A stretch of 64,000 nt of DNA, taken from NCBI GenBank assembly GCA_029936675.1, contig JAPYSB010000003.1, positions 93,489-157,488 of the forward strand. Direction: 5' to 3'. This DNA comes from Dehalococcoidia bacterium (GTDB lineage Bacteria; Chloroflexota; Dehalococcoidia; Lucifugimonadales; UBA826). The notes beneath the pieces are model-generated. The model was not told the DNA's origin. It worked only from the letters and a program-made list of their open reading frames with translations, and ran no database searches. A program made the position numbers and the translations under genes. Below, one piece after another: positions 6,729 to 7,760 of the stretch (position 1 is its first letter; each line of letters begins with the position of its first letter).

Positions 6729-7544
6729 CTAGTTTATATCAAGTATTTTGAGGTTCGCCTGACCTTTTGGAGTGACTGCCACAGCCTTTTGACCGGATCT
6801 TTTTCCTATCAGTGCCTTTCCTAATGGTGAGGCATCGGATATTTTACCTTCAAGAGGATTAGCTTCTGAAGGGCTAACGAGAGTGTATTTGCTCTTCTTT
6901 TTTTTGTCCACATCTTCAATTACGATAGTGGTTCCAACCCGCACTGTTTTCGCACCTTTGCCTGAAGAATCAACAATTATTGCGGATCTAAGCATGCCCT
7001 CGATTTCCTTGATTCGGGCTTCCTCTCTTCCCTGTTGCTCACGAGCTGCTTCGAGAGGTGCATTTTCCCTAACATCGCCATCTTCAGCGGCGGTTTGGAT
7101 GGATTCGCTGATGGATATTCTATTTGATTCTAGCAACTCCTTCTCAGATGTAAGTTGGTCGTGCCCTTCCTGAGTCATTTCCTGACCACCCCTTTGTGAC
7201 ATGGACCTTCCCCTTCCAGTCCTAGAATTGCCTTTCGACTTTCTGACCCGGAAATGGGTGGCTAGATTCATGCCCGTTATTTCTTGTTTGTGCATATAAG
7301 CTAGGAACTTACGAACAGCCTGTAGACCTTCTACTGCCTCTTCCGACATCGTGTTTTTGGCAACTTGTTCGGCATATCCACCTATCTGAGATGGTGTTAT
7401 AGATGCTAGGAGGCGATCTCCTTGGAAATGTTTAACGAAGCGGTTTATCTCTCTTATGGCTGCCTGAGACTTATCTTTGTCTTTAAGGCTTACGGTGTAT
7501 TCACCGACTGCCTCCAGCAGGTTCATTTCGTTGTTCGAGGCCAA
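6729..7544 (-). CDS. greA: GreA/GreB-type transcript cleavage factor with an extra N-terminal SAM-like domain
   Basis: Residues about 122-271 form a Gre factor: an antiparallel coiled coil carrying the acidic tip (D157 and E160 in GDVRENA), then the C-terminal FKBP-like RNA-polymerase-binding domain. This would rescue backtracked RNA polymerase by stimulating transcript cleavage. Residues about 5-100 are additional. Their helices (AIREINRFVKHF, LLASITPSQIGGYAEQ, LQAVRKFLAYMHK) read like the N-terminal core-binding SAM-like domain of tyrosine recombinases. A basic Gly/Arg/Ser linker at 101-121 joins the two. GreA is normally about 158 residues and this protein has 271. The TTG start is supported by AAGGGAGA about 6 nt upstream. 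Confidence 0.85.
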   Translation of the reverse strand: MASNNEMNLLEAVGEYTVSLKDKDKSQAAIREINRFVKHFQGDRLLASITPSQIGGYAEQVAKNTMSEEAVEGLQAVRKFLAYMHKQEITGMNLATHFRVRKSKGNSRTGRGRSMSQRGGQEMTQEGHDQLTSEKELLESNRISISESIQTAAEDGDVRENAPLEAAREQQGREEARIKEIEGMLRSAIIVDSSGKGAKTVRVGTTIVIEDVDKKKKSKYTLVSPSEANPLEGKISDASPLGKALIGKRSGQKAVAVTPKGQANLKILDIN

Positions 7545-7760
7545 GGAAATCTCCCTTTTTTAAGACACTACTCTAAAAATTATCTTATGTTAACGGACTT
7601 ATAATTCTATCAGAGGTTGGTGGCTATTAACAAAATTAGTGAAATCATCTTGGTTTCCATACTCTCTCATACCTAATTGCCCAGATAGATTTGGATATTA
7701 GTATTCCATGGTGTTAAATTACCTCTTGGATTCTAAGGGCCTAGGAGTATTACACGATTA

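Follow-up and report, generated by a model that had tools for sequence, protein, structure and literature searches.

Gre factors have been treated as uniform two-domain proteins, and the known members dock through their C-terminal domain. In E. coli GreA, residues D41 and E44 contact the catalytic Mg2+ and are required for antipause activity, while the globular domain rests on the beta-prime rim helices and does not enter the channel (PMC7527559). Archaeal TFS1/TFS4 show how a paralogue with an altered tip can turn into an inhibitor (PMC5715097). In a Xer-DNA complex, the N-terminal domain of the recombinase puts helices into the major groove (PMC5241119). In MrpR (YopR) of the Bacillus prophage SPbeta, the tyrosine-recombinase fold serves transcription without recombination (PMC10516654). 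A literature search limited to non-subscription papers found no description of a fusion between a recombinase domain and a Gre factor.

Such a fusion is present in the Dehalococcoidia genome studied here (2.19 Mb), where no other full Gre gene was found. It lies in the window (i.e. the whole stretch of 64,000 nucleotides that was analysed) as a real Gre-type open reading frame, in which some 121 residues precede a complete Gre module at residues 122-271 (Table 1). On the evidence set out below, it seems rather probable that transcript cleavage in Dehalococcoidia-type Chloroflexota is the task of the fused Gre, an ancient paralogue with a recombinase-derived tether that replaced canonical GreA.

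Table 1. Features of the fused gre gene and its downstream neighbour, in positions of the window
Feature	Position	Strand	Basis or remark
CDS, core-binding-domain/Gre fusion protein, 271 aa	6729..7544	-	TTG start; stop codon within the span
Shine-Dalgarno-like AGGGAGA	7550..7556	-	5 nt ahead of TTG; read from the sequence
Tyrosine-recombinase core-binding (SAM-like, PF02899-type) domain, residues 1-103	7236..7544	-	AF2, VIA/Foldseek, hhalign, Pfam and PDB profiles, own-genome Xer
Linker, residues 104-121, basic (net +5), flexible	7182..7235	-	Charge; pLDDT <50 at 104-118
Gre N-terminal antiparallel coiled coil (PF03449), residues 122-190	6975..7181	-	Pfam and structure comparison
Acidic tip DVREN, residues 157-161	7062..7076	-	D157/E160 = E. 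coli GreA D41/E44
Gre C-terminal FKBP-like domain (PF01272), residues 198-271	6732..6953	-	RNAP-docking part of known Gre factors
FAD-linked oxidase/Fe-S protein, 967 aa	3745..6648	-	Next gene downstream, 80 bp gap

Within the Gre module, Pfam places GreA_GreB_N at residues 123-190 and the C-terminal GreA_GreB domain at 198-271, and the NCBIfam greA model (TIGR01462) is matched with E = 1.8e-41 (141.7 bits, the cut-off being 139). The acidic tip reads GDVRENAPLEAARE and contains the pair D157 and E160, which is invariant in alignments A1/A3. In Foldseek, the Gre part aligns to E. coli GreA (1grj) with a TM-score by target length of 0.89; it superposes equally well on Gfh1 in its RNAP-bound form (0.88-0.89), whereas the free form does not fit (0.46-0.48). 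With the canonical D/E pair kept and an arrangement unlike that of free Gfh1, the protein does not have the features of a Gfh1-type inhibitor, and a role in transcript cleavage is likely. Compared with GreA (TIGR01462; 1grj), the coiled coil with D and E in its tip and the C-terminal FKBP-like domain are alike, whereas the fused protein has the 121 extra N-terminal residues with their integrase core-binding domain, carries the tip DVRENAPL instead of D..ENAEY, and belongs to a clade of its own, apart from canonical Chloroflexota GreA. Long N-terminal extensions on a Gre module are also described by the NCBIfam models PRK06330 and PRK14720. Both match the Gre part of the present protein, but with 718 and 906 positions they have several times its length, and neither matches the N-terminal domain (N-domain). 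The full-length model (pLDDT 83.6, pTM 0.49) predicts the linker core at residues 104-118 to be disordered, and therefore does not define how the domains are placed relative to each other. Since the globular domain of E. coli Gre is located outside the channel, the N-terminal extension would lie there as well.

Whether the extension belongs to the protein at all depends on the start site. Directly 5' of the TTG start stands AAAAAAGGGAGATTTCC, a start context seen again within the genus, and the stretch TAAAAAAGGGAGATTTC(C/T)TTG is repeated in relatives from the genus. If the fusion were an artefact, the true start would be internal and the upstream reading frame fortuitous, for which an ATG at residue 115 of the window protein, preceded by the purine-rich GGAAGGGGAAGGTCC, could be put forward. 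However, the codon at this site is ATG, GTG, TTG, GTA or CTT across the genus, meaning that a start codon is not kept, whereas the codons upstream of it are conserved class-wide and under purifying selection (the dN/dS of the N-domain within the genus being 0.04-0.21). The internal start was rejected both as the true start and as that of a second isoform, and the artefact explanation is in the main refuted, with a practically negligible probability left to it. An Rfam search near the gene returned no RNA element.

The N-domain is predicted to consist of helices at residues 9-19, 27-39, 51-64 and 68-86, ends in a conserved strap (N-L-A-x-H-x-R-x-R-K), and is conserved in dozens of genomes, down to ~25-35% identity. 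When the N-terminal part is used as query, the only NCBIfam matches are the N-parts of XerC (E = 0.0018) and XerD (E = 0.004). The window's own sequence as sole query reached no Pfam SAM model; among the 42 relatives in alignment A2, 9 match Phage_int_SAM_1 (PF02899) at E <0.1, the best at 6.3e-5. The top two hits of the A2 profile among 177,635 PDB sequences are phage-integrase N-domains, namely 3nrw (E = 0.025) and 2kj5 (E = 0.039), and its second-best match in the own genome is an Xer gene (E = 1.4e-5), a locus that is also marked by PF02899. Aligned by hhalign with 30 Xer core-binding domains of the same order, the N-domain scores 47.6 over 86 columns (probability 95.2, E = 2.7e-8), compared to at most 16.8 for 60 column shuffles, 11.2 for the reversed profile and 10.3 for the Gre coiled coil, which matched neither Xer nor the N-domain. 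A chance likeness between helical domains was rejected, as shuffled or reversed columns fail to reproduce the Xer match. The structure that AF2 predicts for residues 1-104 (pLDDT 84.8) retrieves integrase or recombinase domains at ranks 1-22 in Foldseek (best E = 7.1e-3, probability 1.00). In VIA, its 26 best PDB rows are all tyrosine-recombinase-fold domains, with Z-scores from 13.6 to 6.0 (3nrw 13.6, lambda integrase 11.3, MrpR 6.5), the first unrelated row having 5.2.

Each of these lines is modest by itself, but combined they leave little doubt, and it is close to certain from the profiles and the predicted structure that the N-domain has the tyrosine-recombinase core-binding (SAM-like) fold. 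It shares the four-helix fold and residue pattern of the Xer and phage-integrase domains, from which it differs in that part of the DNA-contact signature is replaced and in that it is joined to Gre. The catalytic domain of these enzymes (R-K-H-R-H-Y) is absent from the open reading frame, which stops after the Gre module, and from the Pfam and NCBIfam matches. The earlier note, made from the letters of this DNA, had described a likeness to an integrase core-binding domain, a basic linker and an intact Gre coiled coil with its acidic tip. The first is borne out by the agreement of sequence profiles, hhalign and predicted structure, the second by the charge of residues 104-121, and the third by the Pfam domains and the D157/E160 pair, which is invariant across the fused loci. 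Neither of the outcomes that the note had named as fatal came true: the N-terminus does match a DNA-binding fold, that of the recombinase core-binding domain, and an artefact of start choice is excluded by the class-wide conservation, purifying selection and recurring start context given above.

The fusion is widespread. Most of the 60 nearest genomes have a full-length relative, and within the class 288 of the 294 genomes match the fused profile (6 have no match and 16 a weak one). Judged by the E-values of these matches, the N-domain is included in all but ~22, so that about 270 genomes of the class carry the fusion, Dehalococcoides included; three genomes of 1.4-1.5 Mb, recognised as Dehalococcoides-type by 19-28 matches to reductive dehalogenases in each, have no Gre match apart from the fusion. 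The fused Gre is also present in Candidatus Lucifugimonas marina (L066). Outside the class, matches beginning inside the N-domain were obtained in members of 15 further sampled Chloroflexota families (f112, f121, f124, f126, f130, f131, f132, f134, f138, f140, f142, f144, f149, f152 and f160). In many other families the match covers the Gre part only and the fusion is missing from much of the phylum. The extension is thus not a property of all Chloroflexota Gre proteins, as the earlier note had proposed to check, but of one large part of the phylum. A genome scan with the pattern [KG]DVRENAP listed 80 loci, every one from a record named Dehalococcoidia, SAR202 or Chloroflexi, which as one scan with one pattern is a weak test for spread beyond Chloroflexota. 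A mobile origin was considered and rejected, since no relative of the fused Gre was confirmed on viral contigs and plasmid records matched ordinary GreA in its Gre part only.

Two trees calculated from the Gre part both place the fused sequences on one side of a branch, with support of 100/100 and 100/99 (from bootstraps that were not fully settled), and the short Gre proteins of genomes with two Gre genes group with canonical Chloroflexota GreA. Because of these trees, the fusion is to be seen as a separate old paralogue that was made once, and not as a GreA that was decorated repeatedly.

Fused and short proteins differ in their tips, which is a new observation of this analysis and does not appear in the earlier note. 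A D-x-x-E-N/S tip is present in all 138 fused loci, part of which were found by a pattern on the tip motif itself, those from profile searches being independent of it. By contrast, 48 short GreA paralogues were read in lineages that carry the fusion, and not one keeps the canonical pair (D/E41 and E44); in G020, for example, the tip is GGAVDN. For 46 of them, the fusion was clearly found in the same genome (of the other two genomes, G019 has no fusion and G120 is unclear). All 26 short Gre from the order have G at position 41, followed by D (24) or E (2) at position 44. In the 14 that stem from other orders of the class, position 41 is S, G, N or T and position 44 is N, D, H or T, and the 8 from other classes mostly have D..D or scrambled tips. 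In Chloroflexota without the fusion, however, 20 of 20 short GreA have E at position 44 together with D or E at position 41, a contrast that rests on related lineages and hence on few independent events. That a single short loop has changed in such varied ways, in a protein conserved elsewhere, suggests relaxed selection on cleavage. Judging from these tips, transcript cleavage has probably passed to the fusion, leaving the old GreA as a factor with an altered tip that is possibly Gfh1-like. The takeover is not universal, because three genomes of family f44 lack the fusion and their only tips are G..E or D..D; the D..D tips outside the class may still support cleavage. The closest parallels are Thermus with its Gfh1 and the archaeal TFS1/TFS4, where one cleavage-competent factor likewise stands next to one paralogue with a changed tip (PMC5715097). 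The differences are that the competent factor of Chloroflexota bears an extra domain and that inhibition by the short paralogue is putative.

Some Gre sets in other genomes are also of note. Two short Gre occur in some Chloroflexota without the fusion, at the f111 loci L230, L232, L241, L243 and L245 and the f128 loci L235 and L238, where one tip is GDLSENADY and the other GELIENAEY or GEVEENPEY (i.e. D41 changed to E). Two genomes outside the class (G395 and G458) have six Gre-family matches each, of which part were read. At L292 (G143:C131:2696-3166), a 634-residue frame unlike that of its class mates ends in a Gre module with the tip GDLRENAEY, and could belong to a contaminant contig or represent a further Gre fusion.

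As to the function of the N-domain, the residues that contact DNA in Xer were mapped by profile alignment. In helix D, position 72 is R in 100% of Xer but E or D in 74% of the fused proteins (E72 in the window), while position 73 is K in 100% of Xer and R or K in 81% of the fused proteins (G73 in the window). Position 78 is basic in 100% of both (R78 in the window), whereas the T and Y of helix B in Xer are not kept. The core (residues 8-91) has a mean net charge of +0.7 in the fused proteins and 0 in the window, compared to an average of +2.1 for Xer domains. The corresponding values are +2.9 and +3 for the strap (residues 92-103), in which the basic R99-x-R101-K102 is retained, and +2.4 and +5 for the linker. 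L81 and H97 are invariant in A2, and Y57 is strongly conserved as well. Nucleic-acid binding by the N-domain is possible on this residue pattern, the strap and linker being the likeliest contacts and the classical mode being altered.

The same pattern could also mean that the N-domain no longer binds DNA and instead docks a protein next to the secondary channel, either a lineage-specific RNAP surface or another factor. Part of the Xer DNA-contact signature is indeed lost, the core is near neutral, and the strongly conserved Y57, L81 and H97 are not basic. Furthermore, in two genera of family f86 (loci L299, G161:C58:22806-23342, and L302, G152:C1:611-1171) the protein consists of the N-domain and a coiled coil with the tip GDLSENAGYH, after which another gene follows directly. 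With the C-terminal docking domain missing, only the N-domain could substitute for it there, and it may thus do the docking; the loss of the C-terminal domain with N-domain and tip kept fits such a role. On the other hand, R78, the mostly basic position 73, the strap and the basic linker have been kept, as expected for nucleic-acid contact. Protein docking in place of DNA binding is thus a possibility to be taken seriously, albeit with the balance against it. A C-terminal domain is also absent from a 138-residue frame at L293 (G203:C21:71577-71783), which has a Gre coiled coil with the tip GDLKENSGYH and a possible zinc-ribbon-like CPGCG motif (Pfam Zn_Ribbon_TF at E = 0.017 only).

The surroundings of the gene bear on a further explanation, namely that the domain steers the factor to specific DNA sites (dif-like or origin-proximal) as a site-specific anti-pausing device. 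At the 77 fused gre loci examined for neighbours, the divergent upstream genes include those for the RNase P protein (rnpA, 32 loci), a PQQ-repeat protein (40) and Jag (33); in the window, the divergent upstream gene is acyl-CoA-synthetase-like (its function being read from sequence alone). The genes rnpA and jag are usually origin-proximal. Their frequent position beside the gene and the kinship of the N-domain to Xer domains of the same genome would be in line with site-specific steering, but the sequence-reading helices differ from those of Xer, neither a companion site nor a recombinase adjoins the gene, and the broad single-copy distribution fits a general factor. Steering to specific sites is therefore highly improbable. 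The interpretation in the earlier note is supported in part: the fold, coiled coil, acidic tip and true fusion stand, contact of the domain with DNA is possible, and targeting to special sites has found no support, a general role being a better fit for a class-wide chromosomal single-copy factor. Downstream, a homologue of the FAD-linked oxidase/Fe-S gene follows on the same strand in 61 of the 77 loci, with a TerC-family gene in between in 37 of the 77. In one such homologue (L046), Pfam finds FAD_binding_4, FAD-oxidase_C, CCG and Fer4. The pairing of fused gre with the oxidase is thus a conserved one.

It could also be that the N-domain has no external partner and is an appendage that is neutral or does no more than stabilise the protein, or else that it autoinhibits the Gre module. 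Two genomes of family f42 (loci L278, G119:C18:147426-147902, and L289, G216:C26:13737-14228) have a fused-type Gre, with the tips KDFRENAPL and GDFSENAPL, from which the N-domain is missing in what is apparently a secondary loss; the N-domain can thus be dispensed with while the Gre module is retained. It also evolves faster, with a dN within the genus of 0.023-0.033 compared to 0.006-0.016 for the Gre module. Its dN/dS of 0.04-0.21, the invariant L81 and H97 and the conserved strap across deep divergence, and its retention in nearly all lineages nevertheless speak against an idle appendage, and make this explanation improbable.

The preferred reading, in which the fused Gre is a cleavage factor with a recombinase-derived tether, would work as follows. 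A core-binding domain devoid of its catalytic domain would have been joined once to the N-terminus of a Gre paralogue. As in known Gre factors, the C-terminal domain would dock at the rim of the RNAP secondary channel and the coiled coil would go in, after which D157 and E160 would help to keep Mg2+ at the active site, and the backtracked RNA would be cut. The core-binding domain, held outside the channel on its basic flexible linker, may then grip a nearby partner, most likely nucleic acid (the downstream duplex DNA) and/or the RNAP surface, by which the affinity for stalled complexes would go up. Once cleavage was taken over, the tip of the short GreA would have been freed from selection, and this protein may now act, if at all, as a non-cleaving binder of the secondary channel. 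With its structural match (Z 6.5), MrpR provides a precedent for the recruitment of the core-binding fold to transcription, although MrpR is a whole recombinase-like protein that acts as a repressor, whereas in the fused Gre the core-binding domain alone is placed on a secondary-channel factor. A bolder version combines a recombinase-derived DNA clamp on stalled complexes with an obligate split of labour, in which a former GreA that lost its catalytic tip would restrain RNAP; the secondary-channel regulators would then have been rewired in a way that defines the class. This version is put forward only tentatively and is rather doubtful.

For Dehalococcoides, strong acetylation of K17 in stationary phase has been reported for the D. 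mccartyi GreA cbdbA743 (PMC7918482). Its use as proof that the N-domain is expressed was dropped, because the three Dehalococcoides-type genomes have N at residue 17, with K at 22 and 23; the numbering or the strain must therefore differ from that in the published work.

It thus appears that a Gre with an added recombinase domain serves the whole class, to which both the dechlorinating Dehalococcoides and SAR202, abundant in the sea, belong. As annotation pipelines give the name 'GreA' to both proteins, it has stayed hidden that the short gene is probably not a cleavage factor. If the domain grips DNA, the fused Gre would be an example of an elongation factor that is anchored to its template, and if it grips RNAP, it would represent a new mode of docking.
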